From Falsirhodobacter xinxiangensis (lineage in GTDB: Bacteria > Pseudomonadota > Alphaproteobacteria > Rhodobacterales > Rhodobacteraceae): a stretch of 64,000 bases of DNA. The DNA lies in contig NZ_SMYN01000003.1 in assembly GCF_004959935.1 (NCBI RefSeq), positions 186,001 to 250,000 of the forward strand, written 5' to 3'. Positions 5,776 through 32,046 of the stretch are shown one piece after another. The notes under the pieces are model-generated. The model was not told the origin of the DNA and did not search any database. It saw nothing but the letters and a program-made list of their open reading frames with translations. Numbering within the stretch: the first letter of the stretch is position 1; each line of letters begins with the position of its first letter. The position numbers and the translations under genes were made by a program.

Positions 5776-6597
5776 ATGAACATCGTGACCATCGGCGACA
5801 TCGCCATCGGCGGGAACAACCCGATCTCGCTCATCCTCGGGCCGTGCCAGCTTGAATCGCTGGAACACGCGCGGATGATGGCGGGGCGGATTGCCGAGGC
5901 CTGCGCGCCGACCGGCACGAAGTTCATCTTCAAGGCCAGCTATGACAAGGCCAACCGGTCCTCCATCGGGACGGAACGCGGCCTTGGCATGGAAAAGGGG
6001 CTGGAGATCCTTGCGCAGATCAAGGACGAGTTCGGCGTTCCGGTCCTGACCGATGTTCACGAGCCGTGGCACTGCGCCAAGGCGGCCGAGGTCTGCGACG
6101 TGTTGCAGATCCCCGCGTTCCTGTGCCGCCAGACCGACCTGCTGCTGGCGGCGGGCGAGACCGGCCGCGCTATCAACATCAAGAAAGGTCAGTTCCTCGC
6201 CCCTTGGGACATGAAGAACGTCGCGGCCAAGGTCGAATCGACCGGCAACCGCAACATCATGCTGTGCGAGCGGGGAACCTCCTTCGGCTATAACGCGCTG
6301 GTTACGGATTTCCGCGGGCTGCCGACGATGGCGGCGACCGGCTGGCCGGTGGTGTTCGACGCGACGCATTCGGTGCAGCAACCGGGCGGCCTTGGCGGCA
6401 CATCGGGCGGGCAGCGCGAATTCGCGCCGGTGCTGGCGCGGGCGGCCTGTGCGGTGGGCGTGTCTGCGCTGTTCATCGAAACGCATCAGGACCCGGACAA
6501 CGCGCCGTCGGACGGGCCGAACATGATCCCGGTGGACCAGATGCCGGCGTTGATCGCGAACCTGCGGGCCTTCGACGCGCTGGCCAAGGGGCTCTGA
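5776..6597 (+). CDS. kdsA: 3-deoxy-8-phosphooctulonate synthase KdsA
   Basis: Condenses arabinose-5-phosphate with phosphoenolpyruvate to Kdo-8-phosphate, the first committed step to the inner-core sugar Kdo of LPS. The 273-residue protein has typical DAHP-synthase-I family segments: GPCQLES near the start, [20 protein letters not shown] and [10 protein letters not shown] possible metal-binding Cys is visible in [11 protein letters not shown]. It forms a tight pair with kdsB, which starts one base after its stop. The arabinose-5-phosphate isomerase kdsD is in this window at 31093-32046. No kdsC phosphatase is seen. Confidence 0.97.
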
Positions 6598-6598
6598 C

Positions 6599-7387
6599 AT
6601 GGACGCCTGCATCATCATCCCGGCGCGCTATGCCTCCACCCGTTACCCCGCGAAACCGCTGGCGGTGCTGAAAGGGGCGAACGGCGTCAGCCGCAGCCTT
6701 TTGGAGCGGTCCGTGATCGCGGCAAGGCAGGTCGGCGTTCCGGTCTTCGTCGCCACGGATGATGACCGCATCAAGGCAGAAGCCGACCGCATCGGCGCCG
6801 ACACGATCATGACCGATCCCGAATGCCGCAACGGCACCGAGCGCGTGGCGCAAGCCGTCCAGCGCGCTGGCATCACGGCCGAGGTCATCGTCAACCTGCA
6901 AGGCGACGCGCCGCTGACCCCGCCGCATTTCGTCACCGCCCTGATCGAGGCGATGCGCGGCGGCATGGGCGTTGCAACGCCCGTGCTGCGCTGCGATGCC
7001 GAGGCGTTGGCGAATTTCATGGCCGACCGCCGTGCAGGCCGCGTGGGGGCGACGACGGTGGTGTCGAACCGTCTGGGCCAGGCGCTGTATTTCTCTAAAG
7101 AAGTGATCCCCTTCACGAACGCGCAGACGGTGGTGGATGGGATCGTGCCGGTCTTCCACCATGTCGGGCTTTACGCCTACCGCCGTGCCGCTCTGGACGC
7201 CTATATGGGCTGGGATATCGGCTCGCTGGAGAAGCTGGAGGGGCTGGAACAGCTCCGTTTCCTTGAAAACGGCCACCCGGTGCAGGCGGTCGAAGTGACC
7301 GCCCCCGGCGCCGCGTTCTGGGAGTTGAACAACCCCTCCGACGTGCCGCTGATCGAAGGCTACCTTGCCCGGATGGGCATCGACTAA
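6599..7387 (+). CDS. kdsB: CMP-Kdo synthetase (3-deoxy-manno-octulosonate cytidylyltransferase) KdsB
   Basis: Activates Kdo with CTP to CMP-Kdo for transfer onto lipid A precursor. The 262-residue protein carries the nucleotide-binding N terminus IIPARYASTRYPAKPL, the NLQGDAPL segment and the GLYAYRR block. It follows kdsA by one base and is almost certainly translated from the same message. Its TAA stop is interleaved with the TAG stop of the convergent glyoxalase-fold gene in the tetranucleotide CTAA (7384-7387). Confidence 0.96.
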   Translation: MDACIIIPARYASTRYPAKPLAVLKGANGVSRSLLERSVIAARQVGVPVFVATDDDRIKAEADRIGADTIMTDPECRNGTERVAQAVQRAGITAEVIVNLQGDAPLTPPHFVTALIEAMRGGMGVATPVLRCDAEALANFMADRRAGRVGATTVVSNRLGQALYFSKEVIPFTNAQTVVDGIVPVFHHVGLYAYRRAALDAYMGWDIGSLEKLEGLEQLRFLENGHPVQAVEVTAPGAAFWELNNPSDVPLIEGYLARMGID

Positions 7388-20093: not shown

Positions 20094-20915
20094 TCAGCCT
20101 TTGGCGTGCCACGAAACCGAGGCGTAACGCTTGGTATAGAATTGCCCCATCAAGCCGATCGCGACGCAGACCACCATCACCTTGATGGGATAGGAGACCG
20201 TGCTGTAATGCGGGTGATAGTTCAGAAAGGCAAAGCCCCGCGCCTGATCGATGACATGGAACAGCGGGTTCCAGTCGAACAGGGCCAGCATCTTGGCCGT
20301 CATCAGGTTGGCAAGGAACATCTTGCCCGAGGCGATCATGTTCGCCCGCTGGTAAAGGGTCGAGATGATGCCGACCAGCGCAGGCTGCCAGGGTTTCGCC
20401 GCAAGGAAGATCATCCCGATGCCGACGCCCGACCCCCATGCCAGCAGCAGCATCCCAAGAACGGCGGTCGGCACGCGGATGCTGATGGGCGTGACGATGG
20501 CATGGTAAAGATAGAGGACCACGGCCGCCGACAGGATCTGGATATACAGCGTGCCCAGCGCCGCGGCCGCGATCGCGACGATGGGGTTCATCGGCGAATG
20601 CTTCATCATCGCCGATGTCGGACCTTCGGCCCCGGTGACCGCGCTCATGGTCTGGTTGTGGACCATGAACATGAAAATGCCCGACATCACGAAAAGTAGG
20701 AAATCGCCGCGAATCGCCATCTGCCGCATCCCGAGGATGTGCATCATGAAATAGAAGACCGCGATCATGATGACCGTCTGCACGATCGCCATCACCAGCC
20801 CGAGCACCGCATTCCCGTGCGATTTGCGCACATGACGAACCGAGGCGTGAAAGATCAGTTCTGCCACGCCAAGGGCGGCGGCAAGGCGGCTGGGATTCGT
20901 CTCGGTTCTGAACAT
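20094..20915 (-). CDS. ABC-2 type permease for polysaccharide export (KpsM-like)
   Basis: A 273-residue inner-membrane protein with about six membrane segments and an ABC-2 type layout. It is of the kind that moves capsule or O-antigen chains outward together with a KpsT-type ATPase. An amphipathic N terminus (ELIFHASVRHVRKSHGNAVLG) precedes the first helix, as in KpsM relatives. No ATPase partner or outer-membrane component is next to it. The ATG at 20915 has GGAG 5 bases upstream, while a GTG at 20921 would overlap that site. It may serve the glycan cluster at 22901-28018, but this is inference. Confidence 0.8.
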   Translation of the reverse strand: MFRTETNPSRLAAALGVAELIFHASVRHVRKSHGNAVLGLVMAIVQTVIMIAVFYFMMHILGMRQMAIRGDFLLFVMSGIFMFMVHNQTMSAVTGAEGPTSAMMKHSPMNPIVAIAAAALGTLYIQILSAAVVLYLYHAIVTPISIRVPTAVLGMLLLAWGSGVGIGMIFLAAKPWQPALVGIISTLYQRANMIASGKMFLANLMTAKMLALFDWNPLFHVIDQARGFAFLNYHPHYSTVSYPIKVMVVCVAIGLMGQFYTKRYASVSWHAKG

Positions 20916-21036
20916 CGTCACTCCGCGGGATCGCGCTGAACCTGAACGGGAAATCTTGCCGTCCGCTTACCGGCGAAGGATAAAGGACCGTGCGCGGCGT
21001 TTCAACGTGCCCGCGTTCAACTTTATGGAGAGCCCC

Positions 21037-21828
21037 ATGGATTTCGACACGCTCGTCCCGCTAATCCGCCGTCTGGCGCTGGAGGCGGGGGACCGCATCA
21101 TGGAAATCTATGGCAAGGACGATTTCGACGTGCGCGCCAAGGGCGATGCCAGCCCGGTGACGGCGGCGGACGAGGCTGCGGATGCGCTGATCTTTGCGGG
21201 GCTGCGCGCGGCATTTCCGGACGCCGTGATCGTGACCGAGGAACAGGCGGACAGCCATGCCGCCACGGCCAGCAGCTTTCTGATCGTCGATCCGCTGGAC
21301 GGCACCAAGGAATTCGTGCAGCGGCGCGGCGATTTCACCGTCAACATTGCCTTCGTGCAGGATGGCGTGCCGGTGCGCGGCGTCGTCTATGCCCCGGCGA
21401 AGGGGCGGCTGTTCTATACCCAGCCAGACGGCACGTCGGTCGAGGAGACGGGCGCGCTGGACAAGAACCGTCCGGGCAACCTGCGCCGGATCGAGGTGTC
21501 GAGGCCCGACGACGGGGCGCTGATGGTCGTGGCATCAAAATCGCACCGGGATCAGGCGACCGACGATTACATCGCGAAATACGCCGTGCGCGACATGACC
21601 AGCGCGGGATCGAGCCTGAAGTTCTGCCTCGTCGCCACCGGCGAGGCCGAGCTGTATCCCCGGCTGGGCCGCACGATGGAATGGGACACGGCGGCGGGCG
21701 ATGCGGTCCTGCGCGGGGCTGGCGGGCAGGTGGTGCGATTCGATGACCATTCGCCGCTGCTTTATGGTAAACAGGGTTACGAGAATCCGTTCTTCATCGC
21801 TTTCGCACCGGGTGTATCGCTGAAATAG
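21037..21828 (+). CDS. cysQ: 3'(2'),5'-bisphosphate nucleotidase CysQ
   Basis: Inositol-monophosphatase-fold enzyme that hydrolyses 3'-phosphoadenosine 5'-phosphate (PAP), the by-product of PAPS-using sulfation and sulfate assimilation. The 263-residue protein has the metal-binding signature DPLDGTKEF, the TEE motif and the late WDTAAGDA motif. The ATG at 21037 has GGAG 7 bases upstream. It is divergent from the KpsM-like permease and sits 5 kb before a sulfotransferase-like gene that would produce PAP. The link is suggestive but not proven. Confidence 0.93.
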   Translation: MDFDTLVPLIRRLALEAGDRIMEIYGKDDFDVRAKGDASPVTAADEAADALIFAGLRAAFPDAVIVTEEQADSHAATASSFLIVDPLDGTKEFVQRRGDFTVNIAFVQDGVPVRGVVYAPAKGRLFYTQPDGTSVEETGALDKNRPGNLRRIEVSRPDDGALMVVASKSHRDQATDDYIAKYAVRDMTSAGSSLKFCLVATGEAELYPRLGRTMEWDTAAGDAVLRGAGGQVVRFDDHSPLLYGKQGYENPFFIAFAPGVSLK

Positions 21829-22006: not shown

Positions 22007-22897
22007 ATGACAATCAAGAAGGTCACGAAAGCGGTCTTTCCCGTCGCGGGAATGGGCACGCGTTTTCTTCCGGCGACCAAGTCGATCCCCAAAGAAATCC
22101 TGACCCTCGTGGACCGCCCCCTGATCCAATATGCGATCGACGAGGCGCGCGCTGCCGGTATCGAGGAATTCATCTTCGTCACCTCTCGCGGAAAGGGTGC
22201 TCTGGAGGATTACTTCGACTTTTCGCCCGCGCTGGAACAGTCGCTGCGCGATTCCGGCAAAGACGATCTGCTGAAGGTTCTGGAAGACACCAACATGGAC
22301 AGCGGGCGCATCGCCTATGTCCGTCAGCACAAGGCGATGGGTCTGGGCCACGCCGTCTGGTGCGCCCGCCGCCTGATCGGCGACGAGCCCTTTGCGGTGA
22401 TGCTGCCCGACGACGTGATTGCGGCTGAAAACCCCTGCCTGAAGCAGATGGTCGAAGCCTATGAGCAGACTGGCGGCTGCATGGTCGCCGCGATGGAAGT
22501 CGCGCCGGAAAAGACGAAATCCTATGGCATTCTGGATATTCAGGAAGACATGGGCTCGATCGTCAAGGTCAAGGGCATGGTCGAAAAACCCAAGACCAAC
22601 GCGCCGTCCAACCTTGCCGTCATCGGCCGTTACATCCTGACGCCCGACGTGCTGAACACGCTCGACGCGCAGGAAACCGGTGCGGGCGGCGAAATCCAGC
22701 TGACCGACGCGATCGCCAAGGAAATCGACAAGTCCGGCGTCTATGGCCTGCGGTTCCGCGGCCAGCGCTACGATTGCGGGTCCAAGGCGGGCTTCCTTCA
22801 GGCGACCGTCGCCTTCGGCCTTGCACGGGACGAACTGCGCGAGGAGTTCAGCCAGTATCTGGCCGAGGTCAACGCCATGCAGAAGGCTGCGCAATAA
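22007..22897 (+). CDS. galU: UTP-glucose-1-phosphate uridylyltransferase GalU
   Basis: Makes UDP-glucose, the glucosyl donor for envelope and exopolysaccharides. The 296-residue protein begins MTIKKVTKAVFPVAGMGTRF and includes the nucleotide-binding G-x-G-T-R-x-L-P-x-T-K signature and the IPKEIL motif. The VEKP motif near residue 190 is also present. A GTG at 21998 is an alternative start but adds only three residues. It lies three bases upstream of a run of glycan genes, fitting a donor-supply role for them. Confidence 0.98.
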   Translation: MTIKKVTKAVFPVAGMGTRFLPATKSIPKEILTLVDRPLIQYAIDEARAAGIEEFIFVTSRGKGALEDYFDFSPALEQSLRDSGKDDLLKVLEDTNMDSGRIAYVRQHKAMGLGHAVWCARRLIGDEPFAVMLPDDVIAAENPCLKQMVEAYEQTGGCMVAAMEVAPEKTKSYGILDIQEDMGSIVKVKGMVEKPKTNAPSNLAVIGRYILTPDVLNTLDAQETGAGGEIQLTDAIAKEIDKSGVYGLRFRGQRYDCGSKAGFLQATVAFGLARDELREEFSQYLAEVNAMQKAAQ

Positions 22898-22900
22898 AAG

Positions 22901-23887
22901 GTGCAAGGGCCATCCGTTCGCGAATTGCGGGTGGCCTGGAACCTGCGCTGGAAACGCCGCCGCATCCTGTGGCGGTGTTTTCGTTCGCGGGGGGCGATTG
23001 TCTCGGTTCAGGACCGAACTGCGGCAATCGGCGCGGATGCGATCCTGTGCTTTTCAACCGTGCGGAACGAAATGCCCCGCTTGCCGGGGTTTCTTGACCA
23101 TCACCGACGTCTGGGTGTGGGACATTTCCTGTTCGTCGACAATGGCAGCGATGACGGAACGGCAGAGTTCCTGACCGCTCAGCCGGATGTCTCGCTGTGG
23201 CGGACGGGGGCGGGTTATCGCGCTGCGCGGTTCGGGCTGGATTGGATCGGCTGGCTGATGATGCGCCATGCGCACGGGCATTGGGCGCTGGTTCTTGATG
23301 CGGACGAGGCGCTGATCTACCCCTATTGGGAGACGCGCGATCTGCGGGCGCTGACCGGCTGGCTGGATGCGCAGGGACGCGAGATGTTCCCGGCGATGAT
23401 GCTGGATCTTTACCCCAAAGGGCGTCTGTCCGGGGGCGGCGCGTTGGAATGGTTCGACAGCGGCAATTACTCGATCCAGATGCAGCCGAAGATGCGCAAC
23501 CTCTGGATACAGGGAGGGGTGCGCAGCCGGATGTTGCTGGACGATCCGCGCCGGGGGCCGACGCTGACCAAGGTGCCGCTGGTGAAATGGAACCGGCGTT
23601 TCGCTTATGTGAACTCCACCCATTCGATCCTGCCGCGCCGGCTCAATCATTTTTATGACGGCGGACCTTCCGGGATTCTGCTGCACGACAAATTCGCCGA
23701 TGGTGCGCCGGGCCGCGCTGCGCTGGAAAAGGCGCGAGGCGAACATTTCTTCGATCCGGCACTGTTCGACAATTACTACGATGCGCTGATTGCCGATCCG
23801 GTGCTGCACGGCCCCCATTCCAAACGGCTGCGCGGGTGGCGCCAATTGGAGGCGCTTGGCCTTATGTCGCGTGGTGGTTGGGTCTGA
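22901..23887 (+). CDS. GT-A fold glycosyltransferase (family 2-like), copy 1
   Basis: A 328-residue cytoplasmic protein without signal peptide or membrane helix. After a basic N terminus it has STVRNEMPRLPGFL, VDNGSDDG (about 79-86) and DADE (133-136). This is the nucleotide-sugar/metal layout of the GT2-related Glyco_tranf_2_4 group. Its closest visible relative is the next gene, which shares many blocks (RHAHGHWAL, LYPKGR, GGNY/SGNY, KVPLVKW). The start is GTG, three bases after galU. Donor and acceptor are unknown. Confidence 0.8.
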   Translation: MQGPSVRELRVAWNLRWKRRRILWRCFRSRGAIVSVQDRTAAIGADAILCFSTVRNEMPRLPGFLDHHRRLGVGHFLFVDNGSDDGTAEFLTAQPDVSLWRTGAGYRAARFGLDWIGWLMMRHAHGHWALVLDADEALIYPYWETRDLRALTGWLDAQGREMFPAMMLDLYPKGRLSGGGALEWFDSGNYSIQMQPKMRNLWIQGGVRSRMLLDDPRRGPTLTKVPLVKWNRRFAYVNSTHSILPRRLNHFYDGGPSGILLHDKFADGAPGRAALEKARGEHFFDPALFDNYYDALIADPVLHGPHSKRLRGWRQLEALGLMSRGGWV

Positions 23888-23953
23888 GCTTTCGTTTACA
23901 TTCCTGGGTAGGAAAACTAGAACGTAGGGGATACCTGCCACAGGGCTGCGCAT

Positions 23954-24946
23954 TTGGGCATCGTCGATTCATACAGGCTTCGGTTGCGGCGGAAACGCTG
24001 GCACCTGCGCGCCTTTCGCCGCAGGCACGAATTGCGGCCCGTGGTGGATCGCACCTCGGATTTGCGGCGCACGGACATCCTGTTGTTCTGCACCTTGCGG
24101 AACGAAAGGATACGTCTGCCGTGGTTCCTGGACTTCTATCGCCGGATCGGGGTGAACCACTTCTTCTTCGTCGACAATGACAGCGGCGATGGCGGGCGCG
24201 AGTATCTGGCGCAGCAACCGGACGTGTCGCTTTGGACCACGAAAGCCAGCTATGCCCGGTCGCGTTTCGGGGTGGACTGGCTGAACCTGCTGTTGCGCCG
24301 CCACGCGCATGGGCATTGGGCGCTGACGGTGGATGTGGACGAATTCCTCGTTTATCCCTTTTCCGACACACGGCCCCTGCGCGCGCTGACCGACTGGCTG
24401 GACACCTGTGCCATCCGCTCGCTTGGGGCGATGATGGTGGACATGTATCCAAAGGGTCGCATCGCCGATGCCCGCTATGCCGAAGGGCAGGACCCGCTGG
24501 AGATCGCGAGCTGGTTCGACGGCGGCAATTACCAGATCAGCCGCAATCCCGATTTGCGGAACCTGTGGATTCAGGGCGGGCCGCGCGCGCGGATGTTCTT
24601 TGCGGATGCTCCATCCAAGGCCCCGGCGCTGAACAAGGTGCCGCTGGTGAAATGGCACCGCAACTATGCCTATGTCAGTTCCACCCACATGCTGCTGCCG
24701 CGCGGGCTGAATCAGGTCTATGACAGCGGCGGCGGCGAAAAGGCGTCGGGCTGTCTGCTGCACGCCAAGTTCATCGACACGTTCGAGGGCAAGACCGCCG
24801 AGGAATCGCAGCGCCAGCAGCATTACGGGCGCGAATATGCCGCCTATGACACGCAGCCGGTGCTGTGGACGCGGTGGAGCGAGCAGTACGTCAACTGGCG
24901 GCAGTTGGAGATGCTGGGGCTGATGTCGAAGGGGAACTGGGCATGA
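23954..24946 (+). CDS. GT-A fold glycosyltransferase (family 2-like), copy 2
   Basis: A 330-residue paralogue of the preceding gene. It has CTLRNERIRLPWFL, VDNDSGDG (73-80) and DVDE (127-130). The same downstream blocks RHAHGHWAL, MYPKGR, WIQGG and KVPLVKWH are present, and both proteins end in LEMLGLMSKG/LEALGLMSRG-W. The likely start is TTG at 23954, with an AGGG 8 bases upstream and no good ATG nearby. Its stop overlaps the next start (ATGA). Tandem duplication followed by divergence suggests two successive transfers onto one glycan. Confidence 0.8.
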   Translation: MGIVDSYRLRLRRKRWHLRAFRRRHELRPVVDRTSDLRRTDILLFCTLRNERIRLPWFLDFYRRIGVNHFFFVDNDSGDGGREYLAQQPDVSLWTTKASYARSRFGVDWLNLLLRRHAHGHWALTVDVDEFLVYPFSDTRPLRALTDWLDTCAIRSLGAMMVDMYPKGRIADARYAEGQDPLEIASWFDGGNYQISRNPDLRNLWIQGGPRARMFFADAPSKAPALNKVPLVKWHRNYAYVSSTHMLLPRGLNQVYDSGGGEKASGCLLHAKFIDTFEGKTAEESQRQQHYGREYAAYDTQPVLWTRWSEQYVNWRQLEMLGLMSKGNWA

Positions 24947-26628
24947 CGGTCGGCTTCATCATGCTGTGCCACACCGCCTTCGACCGCGCGGCGCAGGTGG
25001 CACGGTATTGGGCCGAGGCGGGCAGTCCGGTCGTGATCCATGTCGACGCCCGTGTGAAGGCGCAGCCGTTCGCACGGCTGAAGGCGCAGTTGGCCGATCT
25101 GGGGAATGTGCGCTTTTCGGACCGTTTCGCCTGCGAATGGGGAAGCTGGGGGCTGGTCGCGGCAACTCTGGGCGCGGGGGCGCTGATGCTGCGCGATTTC
25201 GCGCAGGTCGATCATGTCTTTCTCGCCTCGGGGGCCTGCCTGCCCCTGCGTCCGGTCGCGGATCTGGAGGCGTATCTTGCCGCGCGGCCCGGCACGGATT
25301 TCATCGAATCCGTGACTACCGAAGACGTGGGCTGGACCGTCGGCGGCCTTGACCGCGAACGCTTCACCTTGCGGTTTCCGTTCTCGTGGCGCAGCCAGCG
25401 GGCGCTGTTCGACGGCTATGTCCGGCTTCAACGCCGCGCGGGGTTCAGCCGCACCATCCCCGCCGGGGTCGAGCCGCATCTGGGCAGCCAGTGGTGGTGC
25501 CTGACGCGCGGCACGCTGGCGGCGATCCTGAACAGCCCGGATCGGCGCGTGCATGACGCCTATTTCCGCCGCGTCTGGATTCCGGACGAAAGCTATTTCC
25601 AAAGCCTCGTTCGCCGGTATTCGGGACGGATCGAAAGCCGGTCGCTGACGCTGTCGAAGTTCGATTTCCAAGGCAAGCCGCATATCTTCTATGACGATCA
25701 CCTTGGGCTGCTGCGCCGCTCGGATTGTCTCGTTGCGCGGAAGATCTGGCCGCATGCGAACCAGCTTTACAAAACCTTCCTTGCACCCGACGGCAAGCGT
25801 GTGGCGGCAGAGCCCAATCCGGGGCGCATCGACAAGCTGTTTTCGAAGGCGGTGGACCGGCGGGTGAACGGACGTCCCGGCCTTTATATGCAAAGCCGCT
25901 TTCCCGACCGGGAGTTCGAGAATGGACGCACGGCCGCGCCCTATTCCGCATTTCAGGGCTTCGCCGACGTCTTTCCGGAATTCGAGCCGTGGCTGGGCCG
26001 GATGACGGGCGGGCGGGTGCACGGCCATCTGTTCGCGCCGGACCGCGTCCATTTCGCAGGGGGCGAGGCTGTCTTTCACGGCGGTTTGTCCGACAGCGCC
26101 AAGCTGCGCGACTACAACCCGCGCAGTTTCCTGACCAGCCTTCTGTGGAACGCGCGCGGGGAACGGCAGTGTTTCCAGACCGGGCCGGGGGACAATCAGG
26201 CGCTGAACGAATTCATGGCGGGGGATGTGAACGCGCAGATCTCGGTCATCTCGGGCGCCTTCGCGCTGCCGCTGTTCCATTCGGGCCTGCCCTTTGCCGA
26301 GGTTCGCAAGGAGGTCGCGCGCCTGCAGAAGATCGAGGCGGCGCATCTGGCGCTGCTGCGCGCAAGCTGGGTCAAGGCGCGCGTGCGCATCTGGCCGCTG
26401 GCCGAGTTTCTTGAAAATCCGATGGACCCGCTGCAAACCATCGTCGAGGAGATCGCCCCCCGCCTGCGCCCGCGCCTTGCGGACCTGCCGCGCATGGCCG
26501 ATTTTTCGGGCTTCGGCCGGTTTCTTCAGGACCTGCGCAATCAGGGGATGCAGCCGACGCTGATGGGCGACTACCCCGCCTCGGACGATTTCAACCCGGG
26601 CCGCGACCGCCCGTTTCTGGTGAGCTGA
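24943..26628 (+). CDS. Branch-type beta-1,6-N-acetylglucosaminyltransferase-like protein (GT14-like)
   Basis: A 561-residue protein. The first 300 residues resemble the core-2/I-branching (Branch, GT14) family: MTVGFIMLCHTAFD, VVIHVDARVK, FACEWGSWGLV, VFLASGACLPLRP, GSQWWCLTRG and the WIPDESYFQSLV block. The last 250 residues form an additional domain that I cannot name, as in other Rhodobacteraceae members. It overlaps the upstream glycosyltransferase by four bases. Bacterial members are poorly characterised, so the sugar moved is unknown. The eukaryotic name gives only the fold. Confidence 0.8.
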   Translation: MTVGFIMLCHTAFDRAAQVARYWAEAGSPVVIHVDARVKAQPFARLKAQLADLGNVRFSDRFACEWGSWGLVAATLGAGALMLRDFAQVDHVFLASGACLPLRPVADLEAYLAARPGTDFIESVTTEDVGWTVGGLDRERFTLRFPFSWRSQRALFDGYVRLQRRAGFSRTIPAGVEPHLGSQWWCLTRGTLAAILNSPDRRVHDAYFRRVWIPDESYFQSLVRRYSGRIESRSLTLSKFDFQGKPHIFYDDHLGLLRRSDCLVARKIWPHANQLYKTFLAPDGKRVAAEPNPGRIDKLFSKAVDRRVNGRPGLYMQSRFPDREFENGRTAAPYSAFQGFADVFPEFEPWLGRMTGGRVHGHLFAPDRVHFAGGEAVFHGGLSDSAKLRDYNPRSFLTSLLWNARGERQCFQTGPGDNQALNEFMAGDVNAQISVISGAFALPLFHSGLPFAEVRKEVARLQKIEAAHLALLRASWVKARVRIWPLAEFLENPMDPLQTIVEEIAPRLRPRLADLPRMADFSGFGRFLQDLRNQGMQPTLMGDYPASDDFNPGRDRPFLVS

Positions 26629-26629
26629 C

Positions 26630-28018
26630 TTGTCCTTCCATTCCTTCGTCATGTTCGCCGCGATGCGGACCGGATCGAACTTCCTTGAAGCGAACCTGAA
26701 TGCGCTGCCCGGCGTCGCCTGCCACGGAGAGCTGTTCAATCCCGCCTTCATCGGCAGGCTGAACCGTTTCGAAGCGTTCGGGATGGACATGCCCGCCCGC
26801 GCGGCGGACCCGCTGCGCATGCTGGCCCTGATGCGGGCCGAAGGGGGAATGCCGGGGTTCCGGCAGTTTCAGGACCACGACCCCCGTGTGACCGAGGCGG
26901 TGCTGGACGATCCGGGCTGTGCCAAGATCATCCTGACGCGCAACCCGCTGGAAAGCTATGTCTCGCTGCTGATTGCGCGGCAGACCGACCAGTGGAAGCT
27001 GACCCATGCGAAGAAGCTGCGGTCAAGCCGCGTGCATTTCGACCCCGAGGGGTTCGAGGCGCATCTGGACGAGTTGCAGGAGTTCTACCGCTATCTCAAC
27101 CGTCGCATCCAGCTTTCGGGTCAGGCGGCGTTCCACATCGACTATGCCGATCTGCAGGATATCGACGTGCTGAACGGGCTGGCGCGGTTCCTTGGGGTCG
27201 AGGGGCGGCTGGACGGCCTCGACGGCAAGCTGAAGAAGCAGAACCCGGACCCGATCTCGGAAAAGGTCGAGAATCCCGAGGCGGTCGAGGTCGCCTTGGC
27301 GCGCGTGGATCGGTTCGACTTTTCCGCCATCCCGAATTTCGAGCCGCGCCGGGGGCTGGCAATCCCGTCGCTGGTCGCGCTGCGCGACATGCCGCTGGTG
27401 TTCATGCCCATGCAGGGCGCGTCCGAGCAGCGGGTCACCGATTGGATGGCCGGGATCGGTGATCTGCACGAACGGTTCGACTGGCGCTCGTTCCGGCGCT
27501 GGCGGCACGGCAATCCCGGATATGTGGGATTCACGGTGCTGAGGCATCCGCTGGCCCGCGCGCATGACGGTTTCTGCCGCCACATCCTTGCCGGCCGGTT
27601 CCCCGATATTCGCCGCGCGCTGGTCAAAAGCTATGGCCTGCCGCTGCTAGACCCGGAGGCGCCCTTGGGGATCGAGGCGCATCGCGACCTGTTCCTCGGG
27701 TTCCTGACCTTCCTGAAGCTGAACCTGTCGGGGCAGACCGGCCTGCGCGTGGCAGCGCCCTTCGCGTCACAGATGGAGACCGTGCAGGGGATGGGCACGT
27801 TCCGCGCCCCCGACATGATCCTGCGCCACGACCGGCTGGAGACGGGTCTGACGCATCTGGCGGCGGAGCTTGGCGTCGATGCGCCGCCGCTCGCCCCCGA
27901 GGAGGACGCGCTTTTCCCGCTTTCGGCCTTCGTCGATGACGAGATCGAGGCGGCGGCACGCGACGCCTATCGCCGCGACTACGACGCCTTCGCCTTTGCC
28001 GACTGGCGCGAGGGTTAG
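26630..28018 (+). CDS. NodH-like two-part sulfotransferase
   Basis: A 462-residue protein. The N-terminal half has a PAPS 5'-phosphosulfate site (AMRTGSNFLEANLN, residues 11-24) and a 3'-phosphate site (ILTRNPLESYVSLL, 101-114), as in nodulation sulfotransferase NodH. The C-terminal half repeats the layout in weaker form: MPMQGASEQRV near 259, then FTVLRHPLARAHDGFC at 301-316. The likely start is TTG at 26630, one base after the previous stop. It is probably the last gene of the galU-led cluster and may sulfate the glycan built there. Its stop is shared with ptsN in TTAG. Confidence 0.78.
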   Translation: MSFHSFVMFAAMRTGSNFLEANLNALPGVACHGELFNPAFIGRLNRFEAFGMDMPARAADPLRMLALMRAEGGMPGFRQFQDHDPRVTEAVLDDPGCAKIILTRNPLESYVSLLIARQTDQWKLTHAKKLRSSRVHFDPEGFEAHLDELQEFYRYLNRRIQLSGQAAFHIDYADLQDIDVLNGLARFLGVEGRLDGLDGKLKKQNPDPISEKVENPEAVEVALARVDRFDFSAIPNFEPRRGLAIPSLVALRDMPLVFMPMQGASEQRVTDWMAGIGDLHERFDWRSFRRWRHGNPGYVGFTVLRHPLARAHDGFCRHILAGRFPDIRRALVKSYGLPLLDPEAPLGIEAHRDLFLGFLTFLKLNLSGQTGLRVAAPFASQMETVQGMGTFRAPDMILRHDRLETGLTHLAAELGVDAPPLAPEEDALFPLSAFVDDEIEAAARDAYRRDYDAFAFADWREG

Positions 28019-31092: not shown

Positions 31093-32046
31093 TCACACCA
31101 CCCCGGCCCGCAGGCAGTCGTGGATGTGGATCAGGCCGACCGGGCGCTCGCCTTCGACCACGAAAAGCGAGGTGATCTTGCGCTCCTGCATCACCGCCAC
31201 GGCCTTTTCGGCCAGGGCGTCGGGGCCGATGGTGCGCGGTCCGCGCGTCATCACCTGACCGGTGGTCAGCGACAGCAGCCCGTCCATATGGCGGCGAAGG
31301 TCGCCATCGGTGACGATGCCGACCAGCCGGTCGCCCTCGGTCACGCCAAGGACACCGAAGCCCTTGCCGCTCATCACCAGAAGCGCGTCGGGCATGGGCA
31401 TGTCGGACGCCACCAGCGGCAGGTCGCGGTGCATCAGGTCGGCTACGCGCGCCAGTCTCGCGCCCAGCTTGCCGCCGGGGTGGAAGACGCGGAAATGTTC
31501 GGGCGTGAACTGCCGATGCTCCATCAGCGCGACGGCAAGGGCATCGCCCAGCGCCAGCGTCATGGTGGTCGATGTGGTCGGCACGATCCCGGTGCCGCAG
31601 GCCTCGGGGGCGGCGGGCAGGACCAGCGCCACATCCGCCTGCCGCAGCAGCGTCGAATCGGGCCGTCCCGCCACGCCGATCATCGGAATGTCGAAGCGGC
31701 GGGTGTGGGCGATCAGGTTGGCCAGCTCCGGCGTCTCGCCCGAGAAGGACAGCACCAGCGCGACGTCGTCCTTGGTGACCATGCCCAGATCGCCGTGGCT
31801 CGCCTCGGCCGGGTGAACGAATTGCGCGGGGGTTCCGGTCGATGCCAGGGTTGCCGCGATCTTCTTGCCGATATGGCCCGACTTGCCCATGCCGGACACG
31901 ATGACGCGGCCGCGCGCACGCAGGATCGTCTCGACCGCCTGGGCAAAGCTGTCGTCCAGCGATCCTGACAGAGTGGACAGGGCGTCGGCCTCGATCCCGA
32001 TGACGCGGCGGGCGGTGTCCAGGAAATCAGTGGTGGAAGATGTCAT
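31093..32046 (-). CDS. kdsD: Arabinose-5-phosphate isomerase KdsD (KpsF/GutQ family)
   Basis: Interconverts ribulose-5-phosphate and arabinose-5-phosphate, the substrate of KdsA. The 317-residue protein has an N-terminal SIS sugar-isomerase domain (GRVIVSGMGKSGHIGKKIAAT, HPAEASHGDLGMV). Two C-terminal CBS domains follow (about residues 200-317). It overlaps the upstream rnd gene by 20 bases. With kdsA and kdsB at 5776-7387, the window holds three of four CMP-Kdo steps. Confidence 0.96.
   Translation of the reverse strand: MTSSTTDFLDTARRVIGIEADALSTLSGSLDDSFAQAVETILRARGRVIVSGMGKSGHIGKKIAATLASTGTPAQFVHPAEASHGDLGMVTKDDVALVLSFSGETPELANLIAHTRRFDIPMIGVAGRPDSTLLRQADVALVLPAAPEACGTGIVPTTSTTMTLALGDALAVALMEHRQFTPEHFRVFHPGGKLGARLARVADLMHRDLPLVASDMPMPDALLVMSGKGFGVLGVTEGDRLVGIVTDGDLRRHMDGLLSLTTGQVMTRGPRTIGPDALAEKAVAVMQERKITSLFVVEGERPVGLIHIHDCLRAGVV

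Follow-up and report, generated by a model that had tools for sequence, protein, structure and literature searches.

In a 64,000-nucleotide stretch of the Falsirhodobacter xinxiangensis genome (contig NZ_SMYN01000003.1, positions 186,001 to 250,000, hereafter the window), a kpsM-like export permease gene and the divergent cysQ gene are followed by galU, two related glycosyltransferase genes (GTa and GTb), a Branch-type glycosyltransferase gene and a sulfotransferase gene. Most of the Rhodobacteraceae genera sampled carry this cluster at one and the same chromosomal position; its most surprising part is that two glycosyltransferase modules strictly exclude each other at a single site. From sequence relationships, we moderately favor the view that the unit serves as the glycan-specific locus for a KpsC/KpsS-type, ATP-binding cassette (ABC)-exported capsule or short glycolipid, probably lipid-anchored and sulfated. 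No published study tied to this locus was found in the open-access literature searched.

A conserved gene order with two alternative modules

The distribution of the cluster was surveyed in 120 Rhodobacteraceae genomes, each of another genus. Matches were obtained for the sulfotransferase (P0004) in 98 genomes, and for the Branch-type enzyme (P0003) and GTb (P0002) in 103 genomes each, the weakest being fragments or likely paralogues (G056 and G074 for the sulfotransferase; G063, G069 and G096 for Branch; G048, G067, G068 and G069 for GTb). Gene order was established for 100 loci out of 99 of these genomes, and the GTb, Branch and sulfotransferase genes adjoin in 93 of them. Among the seven other loci, five are truncated or split by contig boundaries (L125, L127-L130), and two (L123 of G074 and L124 of G057) keep the order kpsM-cysQ-galU-GT4-GTb-Branch with no sulfotransferase gene beside Branch; G057 has no sulfotransferase match anywhere in its genome and G074 has three weak matches elsewhere. 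The kpsM-like gene and cysQ are divergent neighbors in all 84 loci carrying both, while on the other side the sulfotransferase gene adjoins ptsN in 79 of the 100 loci, with hpf-lptB-lptA-lptC behind in most. Because it is recurrent across the family, this gene order is beyond chance. An earlier sequence-only reading of the window had proposed that these genes, with the permease and cysQ, act together and had named their scattering in most relatives as evidence to the contrary; the genes are clearly not scattered, the same order is present in other Rhodobacteraceae, and the divergent pair belongs to what is one conserved unit.

A scan of named genomes returned at least 573 relatives among 597 stretches. 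Within the best 80 of these, most have Rhodobacteraceae or Paracoccaceae names or genera (some genus names being ones that we presume to fall in these families), and the closest is Falsirhodobacter sp. alg1, with 58% identity. One sequence titled Exiguobacterium profundum isolate SSD5 (L163, CP059262.1) also contains a Rhodobacteraceae-type cluster, with a sulfotransferase 54% identical; it is probably a mislabelled metagenome-assembled genome (MAG).

Clustering of open reading frames combined with Pfam searches revealed further cluster members in relatives, namely a synthetase for CMP-3-deoxy-D-manno-octulosonate (CMP-Kdo; PF02348), a GT2 (PF13641), galE (PF01370) and a GT4 (PF00534). The gene content first described for the unit therefore stands for the window and does not extend to the many relatives whose units add one or other of these genes. 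Typing was based on 84 genus loci running from kpsM to Branch, type I having a GT4 and one PF13704 copy, together with a GT2, and type II having no GT4 and two PF13704 copies (GTa and GTb). Fifty-two loci are type I, 31 are type II, one is neither (L085) and none is both; the CMP-Kdo synthetase gene lies within the cluster in 51 of the 84 and galE in 42. The alternative modules occupy the site between cysQ and GTb, which holds the extra GT2 and GT4 in type I and GTa in type II. Over all 148 loci, 91 are type I, 56 type II (two of which also hold a GT2 relative), one neither and none both (Fisher 2e-40, each locus being treated as independent); since this larger set repeats some contigs, counts are better taken from the 84 genus loci. 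The window is of type II: its 64 kb contain no GT2, GT4 or galE relative, and the CMP-Kdo synthetase gene stands about 13 kb before the cluster, outside the unit. With two alternative modules, the Rhodobacteraceae probably make two forms of the glycan.

In a core tree built from joined GTb, Branch and sulfotransferase sequences (85 rows, of which 80 carry a label), 18 changes of type are counted, no fewer than 11 of them forced by starred branches. Shuffled labels average 25.1 changes, with a count as low as 18 in 0 to 2 of 500 shuffles, so the cluster type is somewhat clustered yet labile; the count of switches is soft, the tree being a quick one with long branches flagged. These labels follow the presence of GT4 and leave L085, L099, L107, L090 and L104 unassigned. 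An earlier labelling, in which any locus with a single PF13704 copy counted as type I, gave 20 changes, at least 13 of them forced, and is the one used for the per-gene trees and the closest-pair comparison below. L211, a type II locus first typed I since its GTa match lies in two pieces, is in no tree. Both types occur under the title Sulfitobacter (L174 is type II; L214, L207, L217 and L183 are type I).

Quick per-gene trees of 60 loci, made without shuffles, gave 18 changes for kpsM, 17 for cysQ, 15 for galU and 12 for GTb; Branch, the sulfotransferase and the flanking genes each gave 16, only GTb being lower. Co-adaptation of kpsM with the cluster type is unsupported by this comparison of kpsM with the flanking genes. 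Co-transfer of galU with the type was likewise considered and rejected: in the 14 closest pairs that differ in type, the two galU copies resemble each other no less than do the copies of neighboring genes.

Glycosyltransferases and a tandem sulfotransferase

The two enzymes taken at first sight for duplicated glycosyltransferases are indeed related, GTa (P0001) and GTb sharing 51% identity and matching PF13704 with 102.4 and 114.4 bits, respectively (cut-off 27.5). Residues D127, D129 and E130 of GTb are present in all 99 alignment rows. In a quick glycosyltransferase tree, the 32 copies standing first of two, the window's among them, are separated from all other copies by a branch with a Shimodaira-Hasegawa-like approximate likelihood ratio (SH-aLRT) of 99, which marks GTa as an old paralogue rather than the product of a recent duplication.

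P0003 matches the PF02485 Branch family (52.9 bits, cut-off 23.4). Its predicted model (mean predicted local distance difference test, pLDDT, 80.9; predicted template modelling score, pTM, 0.53) has human xylosyltransferase 1 as best Foldseek match (E 1.4e-15), followed by core-2 beta-1,6-GlcNAc-transferase; the listing gives no model range and the matches are assigned to the GT14 part from their aligned length. The family match and the predicted fold thus both point to a GT14 enzyme. This agrees with the sequence-only reading, except that the extra domain it had left unnamed is Pfam PF19349 (DUF5927). P0003 shares with the GT14 enzymes the fold of its first domain, at 15-18% identity in the matched part; xylosyltransferase carries a further C-terminal domain, as P0003 does, and that of P0003 is DUF5927. 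Among 385 genomes of the class, DUF5927 was matched in five, all Rhodobacteraceae and including F. xinxiangensis, and these are the same five that possess the full-length sulfotransferase described below. An open-access literature search for DUF5927 gave no papers.

A short motif likeness raised the idea that DUF5927 has a sulfotransferase fold. Its profile comparison with the sulfotransferase half is weak (hhalign probability 2.0%, with 30 column shuffles reaching no more than 1.0%), and the order of its predicted strands and helices resembles that of the sulfotransferase (z 4.1) but unspecifically, a GT-A control reaching z 3.1; this idea is kept as a lead only. Separately, most family genomes have a second, weaker Branch-type match elsewhere (e.g., G112:C6:72990-73829), with 34-44% identity among the matches listed, mostly over residues 3-330 and thus largely outside the DUF5927 part.

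P0004 had been described as a two-part sulfotransferase dependent on 3'-phosphoadenosine 5'-phosphosulfate (PAPS), and the two halves fare differently. Residues 4-156 match 9vki, a solved chain whose deposited name is "LPS sulfotransferase NodH" (E 1.1e-12), and a 56-row profile extends this match to E 4.8e-17 over residues 7-156. R13, G15, S16, R104 and S112 are unvaried in 92 of 92 rows, only one row of a second alignment (A2, 66 rows), that of the MAG locus L211, deviating at residues 14-16; we take these residues to form the 5'-phosphosulfate loop and the 3'-phosphate motif. On these motifs, the N-terminal half is predicted to be an intact NodH/Stf0-like PAPS-dependent carbohydrate sulfotransferase. 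Across 56 rows of 31-57% identity, E34, N37, R78, H83 and W122 are also invariant in this half, as are H306, P307, R310, Q381 and D450 in the C-terminal half. The latter is Sulfotransfer_2-like: PF03567 is matched by 30 of the 56 P0004 members when E values up to 1 are allowed (the best being 6e-9), the match falling within residues 286-471 in the six of ten singly scanned members that show it, and a Pfam scan of the window's own P0004 gave no PF03567 match. The C-terminal half retains the H-P-x-x-R motif, and in the 92-row alignment the PAPS-site motifs of the N-terminal half are not kept. Position 261, which presumably corresponds to the loop lysine of relatives, is I, V, L or M in all 92 rows and position 313 is serine in only seven, so this half is unlikely to bind PAPS.

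Structure prediction and fold search, which had been suggested as a check, led to GT14 folds for P0003 and to sulfotransferases for P0004. The P0004 model (mean pLDDT 90.6, pTM 0.64) has as best matches 3rnl, Stf0 (1tex), TPST2 and 3-OST, with guanylate kinases lower; the scores are modest, two matches reaching E <=0.001 with a template modelling score by query length of about 0.3. Compared as profiles, the two halves likewise show a modest likeness (51 columns, probability 37%, at most 0.9% in 30 shuffles). Compared with NodH, LpsS and Stf0, to which P0004 is related by the sequence match of its N-terminal half (9vki) and by whole-model matches (3rnl, 1tex), its distinguishing feature is the fused second, degenerate half. 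A survey of the 385 class genomes with the sulfotransferase profile (E 1e-10) returned eight matches: the full-length form in five, all Rhodobacteraceae and including F. xinxiangensis, and an N-half-only match in three, of other families.

These features bear on whether the product is sulfated at all. P0004 might be inactive or act on another acceptor, the unit then making an unsulfated glycan; its only Pfam match, PF13469 (Sulfotransfer_3), is under the cut-off (22.5 of 27 bits), its C-terminal half is degenerate, and G057 and G074 keep GTb and Branch without an adjoining sulfotransferase gene. We regard this as very improbable, as the PAPS-site residues of the N-terminal half are kept in every row of the 92-row alignment, cysQ is a constant neighbor and F. 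xinxiangensis has its own PAPS synthesis genes, cysD and a cysNC fusion (L136), both above curated cut-offs.

Export and linker genes and the proposed pathway

The sequence-only reading had noted a lone KpsM-like permease. It is the sole Kps gene at the cluster, and candidate partners are encoded elsewhere in the genome. In locus L135, kpsS, a KpsD/Wza-like gene and kpsC stand in a row, an order also seen in 13 of 13 chosen relatives; KpsS and KpsC pass PF05159 (161.5 and 192.2 bits, cut-off 20), which at gene level predicts the two beta-Kdo transferases. Locus L244 (G000:C1) holds a KpsT-KpsE pair with no permease beside it, and kpsT and kpsE are paired in all eight loci returned, F. xinxiangensis included. 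Judged by homology, every export part appears to be represented, with KpsM in the window, KpsT and KpsE in L244 and KpsD/Wza in L135. PF05159 is present in 111 of the 120 genera, the nine without it also lacking a sulfotransferase match. At E 1e-30, 104 genera have relatives of the L244 KpsE, which are strong (at least 236 bits) in 102, and a tally over the 120 genera gave both cluster and KpsE in 99, the cluster only in one (G098, 84% complete), KpsE only in three (G068, G069 and G096) and neither in 17 (Fisher 1e-16, genera being treated as independent). In this tally, made by hand, G028 and G119, with broken contigs, were counted as cluster-positive, and G063 and G101 as without such a KpsE.

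From this gene set, we infer a pathway with its substrates, linkages, sulfation and Kdo anchor. KdsD, KdsA and KdsB would supply CMP-Kdo, from which KpsS and KpsC would build a Kdo linker; GalU would provide UDP-glucose, and GTa, GTb and the GT14-DUF5927 enzyme would extend the linker in the cytoplasm. The N-terminal half of P0004 would then transfer sulfate from PAPS made by CysD-CysNC, CysQ clearing the resulting 3'-phosphoadenosine 5'-phosphate (PAP), and its degenerate C-terminal half may serve as a binding or scaffold domain. Finally, the window's KpsM would pair with KpsT-KpsE and, with the KpsD/Wza-like porin, export the product.

A different acceptor is suggested by the convergent side of the cluster, where lptB and kdsD are conserved neighbors and the sulfotransferase gene so often adjoins ptsN. 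The enzymes could decorate lipopolysaccharide (LPS), giving a sulfated LPS oligosaccharide like the product of Sinorhizobium meliloti LpsS, with KpsM nearby for another reason; CMP-Kdo serves LPS too, and the nearest solved sulfotransferase bears the name of an LPS sulfotransferase. We hold this to be a serious but rather unlikely alternative, given that kpsM is the divergent partner of cysQ wherever both are present, that KpsC/S and KpsE track the cluster across genera, and that no O-antigen ligase or flippase was recognized among the unit's genes, the only genes searched for them. The genes could also add branches and sulfate to the polymer of another system, such as a Wzx/Wzy-type capsule or exopolysaccharide. 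The unit has only two or three glycosyltransferases and no recognized polymerase, and in the accessible part of one study, Rhodobacter capsulatus has a separate capsular polysaccharide cluster along with wza/wzb/wzc for the capsule that serves as receptor of its gene transfer agent (GTA) (PMC10218006). This possibility appears improbable, since GT-A type enzymes beside a KpsM-like permease would suggest assembly before export and the co-occurrence is with KpsC/S/E, the only systems compared.

Several observations nonetheless weigh against a KpsC/KpsS-type export route. KpsM, KpsT, KpsE, KpsD and KpsS all score under curated NCBIfam cut-offs (KpsS, 217.5 of 600 bits; the permease P0005, 43 of 300 bits against NF050053, far under its cut-off), and KpsC has no NCBIfam match at E 1e-8, though it passes PF05159. 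Whereas E. coli keeps export and linker genes next to its glycan genes, those of F. xinxiangensis are spread over three separate loci, and membership in the KpsC/KpsS type is therefore claimed for the parts only. Near the cluster, a KpsE gene lies about 2.5 kb from the sulfotransferase gene in G004 (L119) and a KpsT gene about 4.7 kb from kpsM in G115 (L126); in the other loci read, no Kps export or linker gene stands beside the cluster except kpsM and KpsD-like genes of 31-36% identity in L171 and L222. A second kpsE-kpsT-kpsM set exists in F. xinxiangensis (L243, G000:C23:125000-141000), so the KpsM-KpsTE pairing rests on parsimony. The kpsM tree of the 60 loci does not follow the cluster type, no polymerase was recognized among the unit's genes, the co-occurrence of cluster and KpsE may reflect shared ancestry, and the CMP-Kdo synthetase also serves LPS, with lptB and kdsD on the cluster's other side.

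Going further, the locus may be a family-wide, ancestral sulfated glycolipid locus existing in two exclusive forms, repeatedly switched at one unchanging position in the manner of a two-allele serotype, with selection by agents that read glycans, such as phages or GTAs, possibly keeping both, and with the tandem sulfotransferase and the GT14-DUF5927 enzyme (perhaps both containing decayed sulfotransferase-like domains) as family-specific inventions; this scenario is put forward tentatively and we consider it doubtful as a whole.

The features of the window are collected in Table 1. The frame check of the genes from galU to the sulfotransferase reproduces the frames, strands, gaps and overlaps first reported, with gaps of 3 bases between galU and GTa and 66 between GTa and GTb, an overlap of 4 between GTb and Branch and a gap of 1 before the sulfotransferase gene; the galU and cysQ calls also hold, both exceeding curated NCBIfam cut-offs. 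The Branch gene spans 24943-26628 and the sulfotransferase gene 26630-28018. The kdsA and kdsB-type genes are one base apart, and the kdsD-type gene sits in the neighborhood of lptB (TIGR04406, 367.6 bits, cut-off 240) and of the genes that we take to be lptA and lptC.

Table 1. Positions of the cluster genes, their domains and the Kdo-supply genes in the window
Feature	Position	Strand	Evidence
KpsM-like ABC-2 export permease (P0005)	20094..20921	-	Pfam ABC2_membrane below cut-off; NCBIfam KpsM NF050053 E 4.4e-11
cysQ, 3'(2'),5'-bisphosphate nucleotidase (P0006)	21037..21828	+	TIGR01331 258.8 bits, cut-off 228.8
galU, UTP-glucose-1-phosphate uridylyltransferase (P0007)	22007..22897	+	TIGR01099 335.6 bits, cut-off 326.8
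GTa (P0001), PF13704 glycosyltransferase, type II cluster mark	22901..23887	+	Pfam; glycosyltransferase tree
GTb (P0002), PF13704 glycosyltransferase, in both cluster types	23954..24946	+	Pfam; glycosyltransferase tree
P0003, predicted GT14 Branch domain, residues 1-265	24943..25737	+	PF02485; Foldseek
P0003, DUF5927 domain, residues 266-552	25738..26598	+	PF19349 466 bits
P0004, predicted N-terminal sulfotransferase half, residues 1-246	26630..27367	+	9vki match; conserved motif residues
P0004, C-terminal degenerate sulfotransferase-like half	27368..28018	+	PF03567 Sulfotransfer_2 in relatives
kdsA, Kdo-8-phosphate synthase (Kdo supply, context)	5776..6597	+	TIGR01362 395 bits, cut-off 314
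kdsB-type CMP-Kdo synthetase (context)	6599..7387	+	NF003950 285 bits, cut-off 234
KpsF/KdsD-type arabinose-5-phosphate isomerase (Kdo supply)	31093..32046	-	TIGR00393 297.6 bits, cut-off 203.7

Two side observations concern Kps-like genes. In L222 (L222:2867), the KpsD-like match (31%) is inside the cluster, between the CMP-Kdo synthetase gene and galU. The second kpsE-kpsT-kpsM set, L243, has large frames nearby, together with what we presume to be an integrase-like frame, and is perhaps another, sporadic polysaccharide system.

Significance and comparison with known systems

The Rhodobacteraceae, which include the roseobacters and the kin of Rhodobacter, the genus of R. capsulatus, abound in sea water and in sediments. 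A surface glycan shared so broadly by this family, and probably sulfated, would bear on cell recognition by phages, GTAs, algae and particles, and would be a common, testable surface feature of most genera. The two exclusive module types amount to a natural experiment, and G057 and G074, with no sulfotransferase gene at the site, are possible natural controls. In addition, the uncharacterized fusion of a putatively active sulfotransferase half with a degenerate one, and the equally uncharacterized DUF5927, are now placed in a clear genomic context.

In the accessible text on the group 2/3 KpsCS capsules of E. coli, conserved Kps genes are combined with glycan-specific genes (PMC13171606), and KpsC/S/D/E/M/T-like parts are all found in F. 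xinxiangensis. Unlike in E. coli, these Kps-like genes are distributed over three loci, the permease alone standing with the glycan genes, and the glycan genes are near-uniform across the Rhodobacteraceae, with two module types. In Vibrio sp. KMM 8419, as far as the accessible part of the description goes, a locus proposed to make a sulfated capsular polysaccharide likewise comprises ABC export genes, sulfotransferases, PAPS synthesis genes, glycosyltransferases and kpsS (PMC11641403). It differs in being an 80-gene cluster which varies between strains and in which kpsC is reported absent, and its glycan structure has been measured. The GTA-receptor capsule of R. capsulatus, likewise a surface polysaccharide of the same family, was considered as the possible product of the cluster; this reading was not adopted because the accessible part of that work ascribes the capsule to other genes, rcc01081-01086, rcc01932 and wzc/wzb/wza (PMC10218006). 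An LPS sulfotransferase gene, lpsS, is recorded for S. meliloti in the portion of text available (PMC12445080). Sulfated ABC-dependent capsules and an LPS sulfotransferase gene are thus already known.

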